Source of the DNA: Mycobacterium barrassiae
Lineage (GTDB): Bacteria > Actinomycetota > Actinomycetes > Mycobacteriales > Mycobacteriaceae
Direction of reading: 5' to 3'
Length of the DNA stretch: 64,000 nt
Assembly (NCBI RefSeq): GCF_025822765.1
Contig: NZ_JACKUK010000039.1
Location: 1 to 64,000, forward strand
The notes beneath the pieces are model-generated. The model was not told where the DNA came from, ran no database searches, and worked only from the letters and a program-made list of their open reading frames with translations. A program made the position numbers and the translations under genes. This document shows, one piece after another, positions 17,669 to 29,978 of the stretch (its first letter is position 1; every line of letters begins with the position of its first letter).

Positions 17669-19456
17669 ATGCCGGGCGTGGTGTTCGACATGGATGCACT
17701 GCGCGCGAAGTATGCCTTCGAGCGGGAGCGTCGATTGCGCCCCGACGGGATCGCGCAGTACGTCGAGATCGCGGGCCCGTTCGCCGACTTCGCGAGGGAC
17801 CCGTGGTGTGACCAGAATTTCGTCCGTCAGCCGCTGGCGGATGAGGTCGATGTCGCAATCATCGGCGCTGGATTCGGCGGCCTGCTGACCGGTGCCCGGC
17901 TTCGCGAACTGGGCGTGCAGAGCATCCGGCTGATCGACAAGGCCGCCGACGTGGGCGGCACCTGGTACTGGAATCGCTATCCGGGTATCGCCTGCGATGT
18001 CGAGTCCTACGTGTACATGCCGCTGCTCGAGGAGCTGGGCTACATCCCGACCGAGAAGTACGCGAAGGGCCCCGAGATCCTCGCGCACTGCAAGAACATC
18101 GCCTCGCATTACGACCTGTACCGCGACATCTGCCTGCAAACCGAGGTCCACGAAATCCGTTGGGACCCCGAACTGCTGCGCTGGATCATCGCCACCAATC
18201 ACGGCGATGCGATGCGCGCCCGCTTCGTGGCGATGGCCAACGGCTATCTGCAGAAGCCGAAACTCCCCGGCATCGACGGGATCATGGCCTTCCAGGGGCA
18301 CACCTTCCACACCAGCCGATGGGACTACGCCTACACGGGATCCGATCTGGCCAACCTGGCGGACAAGCGGGTCGGGATCGTTGGCACGGGGGCCACCGCC
18401 ATCCAGTGCGTACCGCATCTCGCCAGGGCGGCCCGGCGACTGCTGGTGTTTCAGCGCACGCCGTCGACCGTCGATGTGCGTGGTAACCGTCCGACCGATC
18501 CGGCGTGGTCGGGGTCGCTGCAGGAGGGTTGGCAACGTCGCCGCATCGAGAACTTCCAGCTGCTGACGGCCGGCGGTGAGGCCGACGAGGATCTTGTCGA
18601 CGACGCGTGGACGAGCATCGTCAAGAAACTGTTCGTGATGCGCCAGACCGCGGTCGCCGGGATGTCCGACGAAGAGCGGTTGCGCACAGTCGAATTGGCC
18701 GACTTCGCCAAGATGGAGGACATCCGGGCTCGCGTGGACGCGATCGTCGCCGATCCCGCGACCGCCGAAGCACTCAAGCCCTGGTACGGCTACTTCTGCA
18801 AACGTCCTTGTTTTCACGACGAGTACTTGCAGACCTTCAACCGCGACAACGTGACCCTCGTCGACACCAAGGGCCAGGGTGTCGAGCGCATCACCCGCGA
18901 CGGCGTTGCGGTCAACGGCGTCGAGCACAAGCTCGACTGTCTGATCTTCGCTACAGGTTTCGAGGTGGGCACCGACTACTCACGGCGGACCGGCTTCGAA
19001 GTGATCGGCCGCGGGGGCATGACACTCACGGATGCGTGGCGAGACGGCGTACGGACGCTGCACGGGCTCACTGTCAACGGATTCCCGAACTGCTTCATTC
19101 TGTCCATCGCACAATCCGGCTTCACCGTGAACTTTCCGTATCTGCTCGACGTGCAGGCGCAACACGCCGCGGAGGTGATCGCGTGGGGGTTGCGCCACGG
19201 GGTCACCGAGCTGGAGCCGTCGGCTGACGCCGAATCGGCGTGGGTAGACACCGTGATCGGCCGCTCCACGGCGAGCGCTGGCCGCGCCAAGTCCTGCACA
19301 CCGGGGTACTACAACCGAGAAGGCCAGGCGAACGCCAAGACTCGTCAGGGCAGCTTCTTCTACGGCACCCCAACCGAATACGCCGAGATTCTCCTGGCGT
19401 CCCGCAGGAACGGCGCCCCGGAGGGTTTCGAGATCCGCACAGGTAGCCGTCGATGA
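17669..19456 (+). CDS. Flavin-containing Baeyer-Villiger-type monooxygenase
   Basis: The 595-residue protein is a type I Baeyer-Villiger monooxygenase: FAD-binding GAGFGG at 66-71, [19 protein letters not shown], the BVMO fingerprint FxGxxxHxxxWD at 208-219 and the NADPH-binding GTGATAIQ. It would insert oxygen into a ketone using NADPH and O2. Length and the extra N-terminal 55 residues match cyclohexanone- and steroid-monooxygenase-like members. Start could be 17669 or 17690. Its stop overlaps the start of the second monooxygenase by four bases (ATGA), so both are made together; a joint ketone-degradation role is inferred. Confidence 0.9.
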
Positions 19457-20946
19457 TTTCGCGCGGCCGATACCTGTCCGGTCGTCTTCGCGCACTGACT
19501 CGCCGCGGAACCCCACCGCGGGTGGTGATCATCGGGGCCGGTTTCGGCGGCATCGCCGCAGCGGTCGCATTGCGCCGCAGAGGTATTGACGATGTGACGA
19601 TCGTCGAGCGATCAGACGGCGTCGGCGGCACCTGGCGGCAGAACACCTATCCCGGTGCGGCGTGCGACATCCAAAGCCATCTGTATTCGTTCTCGTTCGC
19701 ACCGAACCGCCACTGGACCCGCACCTACGCCTATCAACCCGAGATTCTGGCCTACCTCGAGTCGGTGGCTGATCGCTTCGACCTGCGCCGCCATCTGATG
19801 CTTGGCACCAGCGTGCGCAGACTGGTCTGGAATGAACCGCACTGGGATGTCGAGCTCAGCGACGGGCGAACGCTCGTCGCGGATGTTGTCGTCAGCGCAG
19901 TCGGATTATTCGGGGCGCCAAGGTATCCCGACATCGAGGGCATCGCGGAGTTCGCCGGCGACCTGATGCACACCTCGCGGTGGGATCCGGGTATCGACCT
20001 GGCGGGCAAGCGAGTGGCGGTCGTCGGCACCGGCGCCAGTGGTGTGCAGGTCGTCCCCGAACTCGCCGACACGGTGGCACAGCTGACAGTCTTTCAGCGC
20101 ACCCCGCCGTGGATGGTGCCGAAAGAGGATCGGCCGTACACCGGCGAGGAGCTCACCCGATTCCGTCGGGTCCCGTGGGCTGCAGCGCGTGAACGGTGGA
20201 GGCTGTGGAAGCTGCAGCACGACAACACGGCATTGACTCCCGACCATCCGAAAATTGCTGTGGTTCAGGAGTTGTCGGAGAACTTTCTGCGACGCCACGT
20301 CGGTGACGATTCCTTGCGTGACGCGTTGACGCCGCGCTATCCATTCCGGTGCAAGCGCGTGCTGCTCGGCGAGAAGTACTACCTGGCGCTGCGGCGCCCA
20401 CACGTAGAACTCGTGACGGATCCGATCGCGCGGGTCACCGAGTCGGGCGTCATCACCGCAGGAGGCCGTGCGGTCGACGTCGACGTGATCGTGCTGGCGA
20501 CGGGCTTCGAGACCAGCAGCTATCTGTCGGGCCTCGAGGTCATCGGCGTCAGCGGCGAACGCCTGCACGACCGTTGGGGCGAGGATCCGCGGGCGTATCT
20601 CGGCGTCGCGGTGAGTGGGTTTCCGAACTTCTTCATGCTGTACGGCCCCAACACCAACCAGGGCGCGAACTCGATCATCTACATCCTGGAGGCCGGCGCC
20701 CGGCTGATGGCCAGTGCCGTCACTCGACTGGCCAGACACGGCGGCCATCTCGATGTACGACCGGAGGTCGAAGCACGCTTCAACGCGCAGATCGCCGCCG
20801 ATCTGGAGCAGACGATCTGGACCCAGTGCGACAGCTACTACCGATCGCCGACCGGACGGATCGTCACGCAATGGCCCCACTCGGAACTCGACTACGCGCG
20901 GGCGACCTGGCGGGTGCGCCGACGCGACTGGGTGCACGCGACGTGA
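19453..20946 (+). CDS. Second flavin-containing Baeyer-Villiger-type monooxygenase
   Basis: This 497-residue protein is a shorter paralogue: FAD motif GAGFGG at 28-33, GVGGTWRQNTYPGAACDIQSH, the fingerprint FAGDLMHTSRW at 167-177 (FxGxxxHxxxW) and NADPH motif GTGASGVQ. It lacks the N-terminal extension of the upstream enzyme and resembles the phenylacetone/4-hydroxyacetophenone-like and EthA-like branch. The two genes are unlikely to be simple recent duplicates because their lengths and termini differ. The ATG overlaps the upstream stop. Substrate is unknown; some mycobacterial members activate thioamide prodrugs. Confidence 0.88.
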   Translation: MISRGRYLSGRLRALTRRGTPPRVVIIGAGFGGIAAAVALRRRGIDDVTIVERSDGVGGTWRQNTYPGAACDIQSHLYSFSFAPNRHWTRTYAYQPEILAYLESVADRFDLRRHLMLGTSVRRLVWNEPHWDVELSDGRTLVADVVVSAVGLFGAPRYPDIEGIAEFAGDLMHTSRWDPGIDLAGKRVAVVGTGASGVQVVPELADTVAQLTVFQRTPPWMVPKEDRPYTGEELTRFRRVPWAAARERWRLWKLQHDNTALTPDHPKIAVVQELSENFLRRHVGDDSLRDALTPRYPFRCKRVLLGEKYYLALRRPHVELVTDPIARVTESGVITAGGRAVDVDVIVLATGFETSSYLSGLEVIGVSGERLHDRWGEDPRAYLGVAVSGFPNFFMLYGPNTNQGANSIIYILEAGARLMASAVTRLARHGGHLDVRPEVEARFNAQIAADLEQTIWTQCDSYYRSPTGRIVTQWPHSELDYARATWRVRRRDWVHAT

Positions 20947-25798: not shown

Positions 25799-25943
25799 CG
25801 CCTTGGCGCTCAAGGGTCCTCGAGCAGCTCCCTTCTCGCCCACCCACTTCCCGCGAGGCAACCAGACTTTAATCTGCAGGAAACCCATCGCCGGTTTCCT
25901 CACGGCAGACTCCGTTTCATCCTGAGAGTCTCCTGGAGGTTGC

Positions 25944-26318
25944 ATGACAGCTGTTTCGGTTCCCCCGTTCTTGGTCACTTCGGACTTCTGGCAGAACCTT
26001 CCGCAGATGCCGCTGGAAAAGTATCCGGGCACCAAGGGCTATATCGACGATGTCTACGCAAACCCCTATGGCGTACCGATGTGCTCCGGCTATTTCGAAC
26101 TCGAGAAGACCGACGCGCCGCTGGACTACTACTACGACTACGACGAGATGAAGATCGTGCTCGAGGGTGAGTTCCGGTTGGAGAACGTCGACACCGGTCA
26201 GGTCGAGATCGCCCGCGCCAAGGACGCCATCTTCTTCCCGAAGGGCTCCCGGATCCTGTTCTCCACGCCCGACCGCGCGCTGGCGTTCTTCGTCGGATAC
26301 CGGTCGTTCGCGCCGTAA
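25944..26318 (+). CDS. Cupin-domain protein, first gene of the Tmm/Tdm-like operon
   Basis: This 124-residue protein has a cupin/EutQ-like barrel: DYYYDYDEMKIVLEGEFRLE at about 68-87, DTGQVEIARAKDAIFFPKGS and SRILFSTPDRALAFFVGYRS. The usual second His of the first cupin motif is absent, so metal binding would be unusual; the strands around EMKIVLEGE match EutQ-like cupins. The start follows TCCTGGAGG. Its TAA stop shares one base with the ATG of the Tdm-like gene, so it is the lead gene of an operon and likely assists or regulates the same amine pathway. Its exact role is unknown. Confidence 0.8.
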   Translation: MTAVSVPPFLVTSDFWQNLPQMPLEKYPGTKGYIDDVYANPYGVPMCSGYFELEKTDAPLDYYYDYDEMKIVLEGEFRLENVDTGQVEIARAKDAIFFPKGSRILFSTPDRALAFFVGYRSFAP

Positions 26319-28630
26319 TGCTGTTGCGGGCCAACGCCGAACGCTATCGGGTTCGGTCCGGCGGAGTCACCGCGATCAAGGTGTTCGGCGGTGACCGTTT
26401 CGACGTCGTCGACCTCTTCGGCCGCCAGTCCGCCGAGATCACGGTGCTGTCTGCCGATCCCCGGGCCGTGGCCGACGCGGCGCCCAACTCGCCGGCCACC
26501 GTGCTGCGACGCCTCGTCGGCGACGAAGACACCGAGGAGGGCTACGCCGCCTCGATCATCCTGGCGATGTTGTCCGAACACGGCCTCGACCAGTCGGAGG
26601 CGACGGCAGCCCGCCTGTTCGGGGACGACTCCCCCGCCGGTGCGCGGGAGAGTTTCGCCGTCGACTCCGACGCCGTCGTCCTGGTCGCCGCGCCCGCATA
26701 CCCGATGCACGTCGACAGCGCGCAGCAGAACCCGCCGTCGGATCTGTTTGTCGAGGTGATGCGGGCGGCCACGTCTCCGCGCGACGAATATTCCGAACTG
26801 CCCACTCCCCTCGCAGAACCTCTGTGGGAGAGCAGGATTGATGCTGCCACCGCTACGGCGTACGAAGTGCGGGCGGGTCAGTTCATCCAGATCATCGACG
26901 TGGCGGGACGGCAGTGCTCCGACCTGCTGGCGTTCGACGCCCGCGCGCTGGGCGACGGTTACGAGTATGGTCTCGACGCCACCATGACCCGCACCCTGCT
27001 GGGCGCGGCGTATCCGACACCGGGCCTGTCGGGCAAGTTGTTCGACGGCCGCGGCCGCCCCCTGTTGGAGGTGGTGCGCGACACCGTCGGGCGCCACGAC
27101 ACCTTCGCGTTGGCTTGCACCGCCAAGTACTACGCCGACATGGGCTATCCGGGACACGTCAACTGCACCGACAACTTCAACGCCCAACTCTCGCCGTACG
27201 GCGTGGCGGCCCGCGCCGGCTGGCCCGCGCTGAATCTCTTCTACAACACGACCTTTGACGCCGATCTCCAGCTTGTCTCCGAGGAACCGTGGTCCAGGCC
27301 CGGCGACTATGTCCTGTTCCGCGCGGCCGCCGACTTGGTGTGCGCGTCGTCGGCGTGCCCAGACGACATCGATCCCGCCAACGGCTGGCAACCCACCGAC
27401 ATCCATGTCCGCGTGTACGACTCGACGAGGAGGTTCTCTGTGGCGGTCGGACACCGACTCACGCCCGACGCCGAGCCCGTGCTGACCAAACGCACCGGCT
27501 TCGCCGACCGCACCGAAGCCTTGACCCGCCGCTTCGTCGACTACCAGGGCTACTGGCTGCCCGAGAGCTTCGACAACTTCGGCCCCCACCACGAGTACTG
27601 GGCCTGCCGCGAACGTGTGGCGGTGATGGACCTGTCGGCGCTGCGGAAGTTCGAGGTGCTGGGTCCCGACGCCGAGACGCTGCTGCAGGCCACTGTCACC
27701 CGCGACATCCGCCGCCTGTCCCGTGGGCAAGTGGTGTACTCGGCGATGTGTACGGAAGCCGGCGGTGTGGTCGACGACTGCACGGTGTTTCGGCTGAGCG
27801 ACAACAACTTCCGATTCGTCGGCGGTGATCCACACGACGGGCAGTGGCTGCGCCTGCAGGCCCAGCGGCTGGGCCTGGAGAAGGTGTGGATCAAGGACTC
27901 GTCAGACCAACTGCACAACATCGCGGTGCAGGGTCCGTCCAGTCGCGCCCTGCTCGATGAGCTGATCTGGTCGCCGCCCACCCAGCCGCAGCTGCGGGAC
28001 CTGGGTTGGTTCCGTTTCTTGATCGGGCGCCTCGGCGGCCCCGACGGTCTGCCCCTGTTGGTGTCGCGCACCGGGTACTCCGGTGAGCTGGGCTACGAGG
28101 TGTGGGTGCACCCGTCCGACGGCCCCGCGCTATGGGATGCGGTGTGGGCCGCCGGCGAGTCCCACGGCTTGGCGCCACTGGGCCTGGAAGCTCTTGAGAT
28201 GTTGCGCGTGGAGGCCGGATTGGTCGCGGCCGGCCACGAATTCGACGACCAGACCGACCCGTTCGAGGCCGGCATCGGTTTCACGGTGCCGCTGAAGACC
28301 AAACCCGACGACTTCGTCGGCCGCGACGCGCTCATCGAACGCAAGGCGCACCCGCAGCGCGTCCTGGTGGGGCTGCGCCTCGACGGCAACGATGTGGCGG
28401 CGCACGGCGACTGCGTGCACATCGGCCGCACCCAGGTGGGTGTGGTGACCAGCGGTGTCCGCTCCCCCATCCTGCGGGCCAGCATCGCGTTGTGCCGCAT
28501 CGCAGTTCAGCACAGCGCAGCCGGAACCGCCGTTGAGGTCGGCAAGCTCGACGGCCACCGGAAGCGGTTGCCCGCCAACGTCGTTCCCATTCCTTTCTAC
28601 GACCCCGAGAAGACCCGCCCGCGTTCCTGA
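26318..28630 (+). CDS. tdm: DUF1989-GcvT fusion resembling trimethylamine N-oxide demethylase (Tdm)
   Basis: The 770-residue product fuses a DUF1989 (urea-carboxylase-associated) region at about 1-380 to a GcvT-like aminomethyltransferase, folate-binding domain at about 385-760. Candidate zinc ligands in DUF1989 are Cys200 (VAGRQCSDLLAF), Cys267 (LACTAKYYADMGYPGH) and Cys283 (VNCTDNFN). The C-terminal part shows DLSALRKFEVLGPDAETLLQ, SRTGYSGELGYEVWV, EALEMLRVEAGL and DPFEAGIGFTV, all GcvT landmarks. This exact architecture is that of Tdm, which converts TMAO to dimethylamine and formaldehyde, with the folate domain able to capture the formaldehyde. The next gene is a Tmm-like monooxygenase that would make TMAO. 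Other N-methyl substrates remain possible. Confidence 0.7.
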   Translation: MLLRANAERYRVRSGGVTAIKVFGGDRFDVVDLFGRQSAEITVLSADPRAVADAAPNSPATVLRRLVGDEDTEEGYAASIILAMLSEHGLDQSEATAARLFGDDSPAGARESFAVDSDAVVLVAAPAYPMHVDSAQQNPPSDLFVEVMRAATSPRDEYSELPTPLAEPLWESRIDAATATAYEVRAGQFIQIIDVAGRQCSDLLAFDARALGDGYEYGLDATMTRTLLGAAYPTPGLSGKLFDGRGRPLLEVVRDTVGRHDTFALACTAKYYADMGYPGHVNCTDNFNAQLSPYGVAARAGWPALNLFYNTTFDADLQLVSEEPWSRPGDYVLFRAAADLVCASSACPDDIDPANGWQPTDIHVRVYDSTRRFSVAVGHRLTPDAEPVLTKRTGFADRTEALTRRFVDYQGYWLPESFDNFGPHHEYWACRERVAVMDLSALRKFEVLGPDAETLLQATVTRDIRRLSRGQVVYSAMCTEAGGVVDDCTVFRLSDNNFRFVGGDPHDGQWLRLQAQRLGLEKVWIKDSSDQLHNIAVQGPSSRALLDELIWSPPTQPQLRDLGWFRFLIGRLGGPDGLPLLVSRTGYSGELGYEVWVHPSDGPALWDAVWAAGESHGLAPLGLEALEMLRVEAGLVAAGHEFDDQTDPFEAGIGFTVPLKTKPDDFVGRDALIERKAHPQRVLVGLRLDGNDVAAHGDCVHIGRTQVGVVTSGVRSPILRASIALCRIAVQHSAAGTAVEVGKLDGHRKRLPANVVPIPFYDPEKTRPRS

Positions 28631-28640
28631 GGAGGATTGC

Positions 28641-29978
28641 ATGACACGAACCGCCATCATCGGCACCGGCCCGTGCGGACTGGCGCTCCTGCACGCCTTC
28701 GAGAAGGCCCGCTCCGACGGGGCCGACATCGGTGAGGTCGTGTGCTTCGAGAAGCAGTCCGACTGGGGCGGGCTGTGGAACTACACGTGGCGCACGGGCC
28801 TCGACGAAAACGGAGATCCCGTGCACGGCAGCATGTACCGATACCTGTGGTCCAACGGCCCCAAGGAGTGTCTGGAGTTCGCCGACTACTCCTTCGACGA
28901 GCACTTCGGCTCCCCCATCCCGTCGTTCCCGCCGCGTGAGGTGCTCTACGACTACATCGTCGGACGGGCCAAGAAGAGCAATGTCCGCGAGGCCATCCGC
29001 TTCGACACCGCGGTGCGCGGTGTCAGCTTCGACGCCGACACCCAGACCTTCTCCGTCACCTCCGAATCGTTCGCCGACCGGGCGCTGACCACCGAGTCGT
29101 TCGACTACGTCGTGGTCGCCACGGGCCACTTCTCAGTGCCCAACGTGCCGGAATACCCAGGCTTCGAGTCGTTTCCGGGTCGGATCCTGCACTCGCACGA
29201 CTTCCGCGACGCCGCCGAGTTCACCGGCAAGAATCTACTGATCCTCGGCAGCAGCTACTCCGCCGAGGACATTGCACTGCAGACGTTCAAGTACGGCGCC
29301 AAGTCGGTGACCATCGCCTACCGCAATGCGCCCATGGGATTCGGTTGGCCCGAGGGGATCACCGAGGTACCCGCGTTGCAGCGCATCGACGGGCGCGCCG
29401 CGACGTTCGCCGACGACACCACCCGCGACGTCGACGCAGTGATCCTGTGCACCGGCTATCTGCACCACTTCCCGTTCATCGACCCTGAGCTGCGACTGAC
29501 CACCGTCAACACGCTGTATCCGGGCGGGCTCTACAAGGGTGTGGTGTGGGCCGCCAATCCCAAGCTGCTGTACCTCGGTATGCAGGATCAGTACTACACG
29601 TTCAACATGTTCGACGCGCAGGCGTTCTATGCGCGCGACGTCATTCTGGGCCGGGCGCAGCTGCCCGACGCCGAGACCATGGCCGCCGACATCGACCACT
29701 GGCTGACGAAACTCGAGGGCGTGTCCGGCTGCATGGAGCAGATCGACTTCCAGACCGACTATGTGCGTGATCTTCTCGCGCTGTCGGACTACACCGCCTT
29801 CGACCTGGAATTGGTGCGCGAGCACTTCATCACGTGGGAGCACGACAAGGACGAGAGCATCACCGGCTACCGGAACAAGTCGTTCTCGTCACCCTGCACC
29901 GGCACGGTCGGACCGGCGCCGCACACGCCGTGGTGGGATGAGATGGACGACAGCCTGGCAAAGTTCCTGCAGAAGTAG
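28641..29978 (+). CDS. tmm: Trimethylamine monooxygenase-like FMO (Tmm)
   Basis: The product (445 residues) is a bacterial flavin-containing monooxygenase: FAD site GTGPCG at 8-13, CFEKQSDWGGLWNYTWRTGL at 35-54, FMO fingerprint FPGRILHSHDF at 178-188 and NADPH site LGSSYSAED at 202-210. Segments such as YRYLWSNGPKECLEFADYSF and YLGMQDQYYTFNMFDAQAFY agree closely with trimethylamine monooxygenases, which oxidise trimethylamine to its N-oxide with NADPH and O2; length matches too. A strong GAGGAGG precedes the ATG, ten bases after the Tdm-like stop. Function is inferred from resemblance plus operon context; related FMOs oxidise other amines or sulfides. Confidence 0.78.
   Translation: MTRTAIIGTGPCGLALLHAFEKARSDGADIGEVVCFEKQSDWGGLWNYTWRTGLDENGDPVHGSMYRYLWSNGPKECLEFADYSFDEHFGSPIPSFPPREVLYDYIVGRAKKSNVREAIRFDTAVRGVSFDADTQTFSVTSESFADRALTTESFDYVVVATGHFSVPNVPEYPGFESFPGRILHSHDFRDAAEFTGKNLLILGSSYSAEDIALQTFKYGAKSVTIAYRNAPMGFGWPEGITEVPALQRIDGRAATFADDTTRDVDAVILCTGYLHHFPFIDPELRLTTVNTLYPGGLYKGVVWAANPKLLYLGMQDQYYTFNMFDAQAFYARDVILGRAQLPDAETMAADIDHWLTKLEGVSGCMEQIDFQTDYVRDLLALSDYTAFDLELVREHFITWEHDKDESITGYRNKSFSSPCTGTVGPAPHTPWWDEMDDSLAKFLQK

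Follow-up and report, generated by a model that had tools for sequence, protein, structure and literature searches.

We report that a 64,000-nucleotide stretch of the Mycobacterium barrassiae genome (contig NZ_JACKUK010000039.1, positions 1 to 64,000 of the forward strand; hereafter, the window) contains a three-gene operon in which a small EutQ-like cupin gene is followed by tdm, for a trimethylamine N-oxide (TMAO) demethylase, and tmm, for a trimethylamine (TMA) monooxygenase, confirming the cupin-tdm-tmm observation of a first-pass annotation of the same DNA. We consider it likely that this operon represents the upper half of a methylated-amine pathway, which would mainly yield nitrogen, and that it shares a control sequence with the operon for dimethylamine (DMA) oxidation, dmmABC; the cupin may have an accessory role in it. 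The evidence comes from sequence: the families to which the enzymes belong, the conservation of their catalytic residues, the co-occurrence and order of the genes, and an upstream element common to both operons. Published work is cited by its PMC identifier.

The cupin-tdm-tmm operon and its enzymes

The three open reading frames (ORFs) at window positions 25944-29978 are all on the + strand and closely packed (Table 1). The cupin and tdm genes meet at a TAATG junction, in which the last A of the cupin stop codon TAA is the first base of the tdm ATG, and the tdm stop codon is followed by a 10-base gap containing AGGAGG before the tmm ATG, the start of tmm being placed at 28641 instead of the upstream GTG (28455) at which the ORF list begins it. 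This overlap and gap, as first annotated, agree with the ORF coordinates, and tblastn showed the same gene order at 13 of 66 loci retrieved with the cupin from genome contigs, with one more locus having cupin-tdm and running off its contig. The order recurs in relatives and is, therefore, conserved and not due to chance.

The product of tdm, a fusion of DUF1989 and GcvT domains, scored 1132.4 bits with the NCBI equivalog model NF053776 (cut-off, 1100), and its best solved relative was the TMAO demethylase 9q59 (E 6e-264). The Zn ligands of Methylocella silvestris Tdm, C263, C279, and C343 (PMC12560246), align with C267, C283, and C347 of the window protein, and H276, D198, and D346 align with H280, D202, and D350; C267, C283, C347, H280, and D202 were identical in every aligned place (22-23 places, including a duplicate genome and a stretch of the M. 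barrassiae genome itself). The model score, the solved relative, and the metal residues bear out the assignment as Tdm. Among the candidate zinc cysteines proposed earlier, Cys267 and Cys283 map to published ligands, but Cys200, which is conserved in the alignment, aligns with a cysteine other than these and is by homology no Zn ligand, the third ligand being C347. Capture of formaldehyde by the folate-binding domain had also been suggested. Because F491 and L623 of the window Tdm match F487 and L618 of M. silvestris Tdm, which are read as a loss of folate coordination, direct capture on folate is left doubtful, although added folate nevertheless lowered the formaldehyde released by Tdm in the same paper (PMC12560246).

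The product of tmm scored 793.3 bits with the NCBI equivalog model NF058570 (cut-off, 675), and its best solved relatives were the flavin-containing monooxygenases (FMOs) 8b2d and 6hns. W70, N72, D316, and R411 were identical in 26 of 26 aligned places, the window copy included; D316 and R411 correspond to Asp314 and Arg409 of Tmm7211, as judged by motif, and roles of these residues with FAD and NADPH are described in PMC8498191. These results support the earlier reading of the FMO as a TMA monooxygenase, and it was the single Tmm above the cut-off in the genome. Elsewhere in the window, two overlapping + strand ORFs (17669-19456 and 19453-20946) are flavin monooxygenase-like and appear by eye to be of the Baeyer-Villiger type, the second giving a weak match (33 bits) to the Tmm model.

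Taken as a whole, the interpretation given in that annotation stands for the membership of Tmm and Tdm, the operon, and the cupin as a partner, does not for Cys200, and is doubtful for folate capture; the link to dmmABC and the shared upstream sequence had been missed.

Candidate genes for the remaining steps are located elsewhere in the M. barrassiae genome. Contig C26 carries one HODM-type dmmC with dmmA and dmmB beside it, unlinked to cupin-tdm-tmm, and contig C44 carries amt, for an ammonium transporter, together with genes of the GmaS type (type III glutamine synthetase), the mgsA type (glutamine amidotransferase), and the mgsC type (FMN glutamate-synthase-like protein), and one for a sarcosine-oxidase-like protein; gene finding did not call an mgsB in this genome. 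The GmaS and Mgs names were assigned by analogy with PMC5023230 and a Rhizobium plasmid cluster. It is highly probable, judging from these genes, that the enzymes form a route from TMA via TMAO, DMA, and monomethylamine to glutamate. Tmm would convert TMA to TMAO with NADPH and O2, and Tdm, using the Zn/Fe site in its DUF1989 domain, would cleave TMAO into DMA plus formaldehyde; DMA would then be handled by the unlinked DmmABC monooxygenase, and monomethylamine by GmaS and the Mgs/sarcosine-oxidase-like enzymes, with glutamate as the end product. Characterised Tmm enzymes also oxidise dimethyl sulfide, DMA, and methimazole (PMC8498191), and the main substrate of Tmm could be one other than TMA, for example dimethyl sulfide, and that of Tdm an N-oxide other than TMAO; we regard this as very unlikely, however, because the adjacent Tdm scores above the TMAO-demethylase cut-off, all 20 tdm genomes of the genus sample described below also carry dmmC, and TMA had the best kcat/KM in both tabulated Tmm enzymes (PMC8498191).

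Table 1. Positions of the operon genes and the upstream element in the window.
Feature	Position	Strand	Remarks
EutQ-like small cupin, 124 aa	25944..26318	+	PF06249 match; Y62/Y64 at two metal-histidine positions, E68 kept
tdm, TMAO demethylase, 770 aa	26318..28630	+	DUF1989 (173-341), GcvT (397-655), and C-terminal barrel of GcvT (681-762); C267, C283, and C347 as Zn ligands by homology
tmm, TMA monooxygenase (FAD/NADPH), 445 aa	28641..29978	+	NCBI equivalog model; FMO structure matches
Upstream element KTNAY-N6-GAAAC-N9-GTTTC	25869..25898	+	GlnR-like box TTAAT-N6-GAAAC plus GTTTC arm; palindrome GAAAC-N9-GTTTC at 25880-25898

Genomic company of the cupin

To describe the cupin across the genus, the same 198 mycobacterial genomes were used in each search, with Tdm and Tmm called by the model cut-offs and the cupin at E 1e-10. 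Tdm was found in 20 genomes, Tmm in 24, the cupin in 28 (32 copies), and dmmC in 55. The cupin was present in 23 of the 24 tmm genomes compared with 5 of the 174 others (Fisher p 3e-24, a descriptive value since the genomes are related), and all but one of its 32 copies are next to tmm or dmm genes: 19 are found before tdm-tmm, 4 before a tmm that has no tdm with it, 1 beside a split tmm, and 7 at the head of dmmABC, leaving 1 (genome G177) alone. The 19 cupin-tdm pairs were judged from search coordinates and the other 13 copies from fetched loci. The cupin is directly 5' of tdm in 19 of the 20 tdm genomes, G193 being the exception, and dmmC is present in 27 of the 28 cupin genomes, the exception (G041) being 89% complete. 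M. neoaurum-type loci L015 (5947-6372) and L095 (in G177) retain an intact cupin, 81% identical, with tdm and tmm gone; the flanks of L015 resemble those of L011-L013, and G177 still has dmm. Signs of decay were seen at other loci: tdm is broken in M. pyrenivorans (L029) and has two in-frame stops in M. xanthum (L004), and tmm is in two frames in G086 near 5.2 Mb (L092).

A similar association was observed beyond the genus. Among the 66 loci from genome contigs, of which the contents were determined by tblastn and the families checked on representatives, 14 have tdm downstream of the cupin (L001-L014), 1 has the broken tdm of M. pyrenivorans, 47 have dmm genes, and 4 have neither (L015, L019, L040, and L065, three of which are contig-cut or have a partial cupin). 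The loci with dmm genes are from Rhodococcus, Nocardia, Gordonia, Nocardioides, Williamsia, others, and some mycobacteria, and no DmmD was found at any of the 47, one of which (L066) holds the cupin's end only. In a survey of 301 genomes of the family, 71 had dmmC, and one locus was fetched from each with about 6 kb per side where the contig allowed; three further loci, giving 74 in all, came from outside the family. An intact cupin (at least 90 matched residues) was found at 54 of these loci, a cupin fragment at 3 (L156, L162, and L166), and none at 14; all 57 cupins or fragments are within 318 bp before the next dmm gene. DmmD was detected at 0 of the 71 loci by a test that does detect it in G193, Rhizobium, and Acinetobacter, where it is present and the cupin absent. 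Among 72,556 plasmid records, the cupin was found in 1 at E 1e-12, that of Ca. Mycobacterium methanotrophicum, where it heads dmmABC, and Tmm in 139 at E 1e-100 (tblastn), including 95 from Rhizobium and 22 from Acinetobacter. Within what was searched, the cupin is thus an actinobacterial feature. The earlier description of the module as mainly one of marine and methylotrophic Proteobacteria is too narrow in view of these plasmid records and of the mycobacterial Tmm reported in 2015 (PMC5023230). The 22 Acinetobacter records include clinical A. baumannii records, and on an A. indicus plasmid (L102) a PAS/response-regulator system adjoins the tdm, tmm, and dmm genes.

The operon shares its two enzyme families with the Tmm-Tdm modules of Methylocella, Roseobacters, Rhizobium, and Acinetobacter and differs in arrangement. 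DmmABC and GmaS/NMG-type enzymes are found alongside Tmm-Tdm in the Rhizobium plasmid example and DmmABC in the Acinetobacter one, and in these two plasmids tdm is on the opposite strand from tmm and dmm, with DmmD present; the order on a Paracoccus plasmid is tmm-tdm. In M. barrassiae, by contrast, cupin, tdm, and tmm follow one another on the same strand, with no DmmD and no linkage to dmm. In G193 (L096), a small mycobacterial genome (3.2 Mb), the set is dmmD-dmmABC-tmm, with tdm on the opposite strand; it is proteobacterial-like and closely resembles the Rhizobium set. A midpoint-rooted Tmm tree of 23 rows included the window cassette and 12 of the 13 others that are complete. In it, the window clade, four tmm-only mycobacterial genes, and G193 formed three separate groups; G193 joined Rhizobium (97/95), and 8b2d and 6hns, the two FMOs of solved structure, fell with Acinetobacter among the Proteobacteria. 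In the Tdm tree, the branches of Acinetobacter and Paracoccus were long, and use was made only of its groupings of G193 with Rhizobium and of the cassettes. The set in G193 was likely acquired by transfer.

In 2015, EutQ-like cupins encoded close to Tmo and Mao were proposed as methylated-amine genes in Arthrobacter and Mycobacterium sp. 141/155, and the authors reported no tdm gene near tmo in those Gram-positives (PMC5023230). Those loci have the same kind of small EutQ-like cupin beside tmm as the window and differ in lacking tdm; between the window and the mycobacterial loci of the present survey having tmm without tdm, Tmm is 54-56% identical and the cupin about 50%. The earlier suggestion of the cupin as a partner is supported; that it was not previously assigned holds only in part, such cupins having already been proposed as methylated-amine genes. 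The same paper proposed a ferredoxin/flavodoxin NAD(P) protein, Tmd, as the Gram-positive TMAO demethylase, and its gene is one gene from EutQ in 4 of the 5 Table 2 genomes having Tmd (PMC5023230). These gene numbers suggest that Tmd is DmmB in cupin-dmmA-dmmB-dmmC.

Properties and possible role of the cupin

The cupin matches PF06249 (47 bits; gathering score, 21), and among Pfam models, only those of EutQ and Cupin_2 matched; it has no GcvT domain and so does not belong to the DmmD family. Compared with EutQ of ethanolamine microcompartments (2pyt and 4axo), it has the cupin fold and PF06249 in common, with 25-26% identity in structural alignment, and differs in lacking the N-terminal linker region (124 aa compared with 229 aa) and in having the motif Y62-x-Y64-x-Y66-D-E-M-K, which was invariant in 39 of 39 aligned cupins chosen from those at hand. 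Metal-dependent cupins are marked by HxH(x)3E plus a His in the second motif. Here, Y62 and Y64 replace the histidines and E68 is kept in all 39 sequences, with I or V at the place of the second-motif His. A metal-dependent enzyme of the DddK type is disfavoured by the absence of the metal histidines, and DddK was just one of many cupins among the fold matches. A reading of the cupin as an adaptor, or as an acetate kinase module of the EutQ type taken up into amine operons, is also improbable, because the EutQ linker region (residues 1-99) is missing and the score with the NCBIfam EutQ equivalog was far below the cut-off (40.5 compared with 193 bits, with profile positions 147-226 of 233 matched); to our knowledge, there is no acetyl-phosphate step in the methylated-amine pathway.

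The genomic contexts bear on what the cupin may do. A role as a dedicated Tdm partner was rejected, since it precedes tmm without tdm in 4 genomes and dmm in 7 copies of the genus sample. Another possibility is that it is a formaldehyde-handling stand-in for DmmD, protecting the cell or the enzymes from formaldehyde released by Dmm and Tdm. DmmD, a GcvT-like protein, is linked to dmmABC in R. pomeroyi and M. silvestris (PMC5520151), and in the Rhizobium plasmid it is directly before dmmA, as the cupin is in Actinobacteria, the two being of unrelated families and analogous in place only. The complementary occurrence of the two proteins, with intact cupins at most of the family dmm loci, close before the next dmm gene, and DmmD at none of these or of the 47 cupin-dmm loci from genome contigs, would fit such a substitution. 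We nevertheless consider it rather improbable, because the cupin is also found before tmm at loci that lack tdm, and Tmm releases no formaldehyde, 14 of the 71 family loci have neither protein and 3 more a cupin fragment only, DmmD comes after dmmC in Acinetobacter and the shared place is, thus, not universal, and the cupin has no evident catalytic residue, or metal site, for the chemistry of formaldehyde.

As the cupin heads both tmm without tdm and dmmABC without tmm, and Tmm alone frees no formaldehyde, the factor common to its contexts is the amine. We, therefore, tentatively favour an amine-binding role, at less than even confidence, in which the cupin may serve as an accessory protein without a metal: a pocket formed by Tyr62, Tyr64, and Tyr66 with Asp67 and Glu68 would bind a methylated ammonium compound, and the cupin may hold the substrate or hand it to Tmm and DmmABC. 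More speculative is the wider proposal that this metal-free, tyrosine-lined EutQ-type cupin is an Actinobacteria-specific component that takes the place of DmmD before dmmABC and also heads tmm-tdm, in one regulon defined by a 30-bp GlnR-plus-GTTTC operator nearly confined to it in mycobacterial genomes, and would represent a new class of methylammonium-binding protein; we think this rather unlikely as a whole.

Several observations weigh against the explanation that we favour. In the genus sample, 28 of the 55 dmm genomes have no cupin; G193 carries tmm, tdm, and dmm without it; the dmm operon of M. barrassiae has no adjacent cupin; and L156, L162, and L166 keep fragments only (25-45 matched residues) directly before an intact-looking dmmA, where the cupin seems to be decaying. 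An obligatory Dmm partner was rejected on the basis of the dmm genomes without cupin and the three fragment loci, which indicate that DmmABC does not need the cupin in general, and the fragments slightly lowered our estimates for both the replacement of DmmD and the Actinobacteria-specific cupin.

A shared upstream element and its implications

The leaders of ten aligned mycobacterial cupin genes share the palindrome GAAAC-N9-GTTTC (8 exactly and 2 with one mismatch), which the L078 cupin leader also carries. In a set of 71 leaders, comprising 63 of cupins (L001-L064 without L029 and L040, plus the window) and 8 from the 14 cupin-less family dmm loci, 50 had the palindrome with at most one mismatch compared with 6 of 1420 dinucleotide shuffles. 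Among 112 non-duplicate cupin leaders, 59 had one mismatch or none, 36 had two, and the remaining 17 had three or four, with 18 of 2240 simple shuffles having at most one; the values for 21 non-duplicate leaders filed as dmm without cupin, which include proteobacterial, G193, contig-cut, and cupin-fragment loci, were 5 with at most one and 15 with three or four. The dmm leader of M. barrassiae has the palindrome with one mismatch.

Because GTnA(C/T)-N6 lies in phase before GAAAC, the left half of the element fits the GlnR consensus gTnAc-N6-GaAAc (PMC3087709) and also the M. smegmatis core AC/T-N9-AC (PMC3662644). The GlnR-like box is TTAAT-N6-GAAAC in the window and begins with GTAAT or GTCAC in many relatives; compared with a GlnR box, the putative site has a half resembling it and adds the GTTTC arm at N9. 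The combined 30-bp pattern KTNAY-N6-GAAAC-N9-GTTTC had 36 matches in the 198 genomes, and its reversed pattern had 0. Compared with the positions of 20 of the 32 cupin copies and 41 of the 59 dmmC rows, 12 matches are 45-47 bp before the cupin, 18 are 1.46-1.57 kb upstream of dmmC, a position in front of dmmA, and the other 6 are elsewhere, one of these overlapping a dmm site on the other strand; thus, 30 of the 36 precede cupin-tdm-tmm or dmm operons. Since the pattern was drawn after seeing the cupin and some dmm leaders, which counts against it, the informative part is the fewness of other matches. Also unfavourable are that the exact pattern precedes only 12 of the 32 cupin copies and stands before dmm in 18 of the 55 dmm genomes, that the window's box has a weak a-half (TTAAT instead of GTnAC), and that the palindrome was absent even at one mismatch in the four loci with tmm only, in G193, and in the cupin-dmm leaders of the mycobacterial loci L087, L093, L094, L098, and L099.

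On balance, the shared element points to a common regulation of cupin-tdm-tmm and dmm, which we consider reasonably probable and which may consist in nitrogen-status control through GlnR or a regulator with a GlnR-like site. That the element is instead the site of a dedicated amine repressor or activator is less probable: the GTTTC arm at its fixed 9-base spacing is outside the GlnR consensus (PMC3087709), and with this arm the matches concentrate at these operons, compared with the 53 GlnR sites of M. smegmatis (PMC3662644), but the left half of the element fits that consensus in phase. A PuuR-like helix-turn-helix regulator gene, present after the ammonium transporter in some Nocardia and Williamsia cupin-dmm clusters (L016, 10430-11101, and similar), is a candidate for the regulator acting at the element. 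The palindrome was not found before the M. barrassiae amt-gmaS genes (3 mismatches), an RNA element in the leader was rejected as Rfam gave no match up to E 1, and the only other exact GAAAC-N9-GTTTC site in this genome is at 137974-137992 of contig C42.

In searches of open-licence PMC papers, nothing was found on a mycobacterial tmm-tdm operon or on GlnR with DMA. Within that scope, the cupin-tdm-tmm operon, the scale of the cupin-dmm link, the lack of DmmD, the tyrosines in place of the metal histidines, and the 30-bp element common to the two kinds of operon are new. The present findings place a likely complete TMA route in free-living mycobacteria and add a terrestrial actinobacterial branch to TMA and TMAO turnover. 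Moreover, the question of the EutQ-like cupins in amine operons, raised in 2015, can now be put to a direct test through the residues, partner operons, and control sequence named here.
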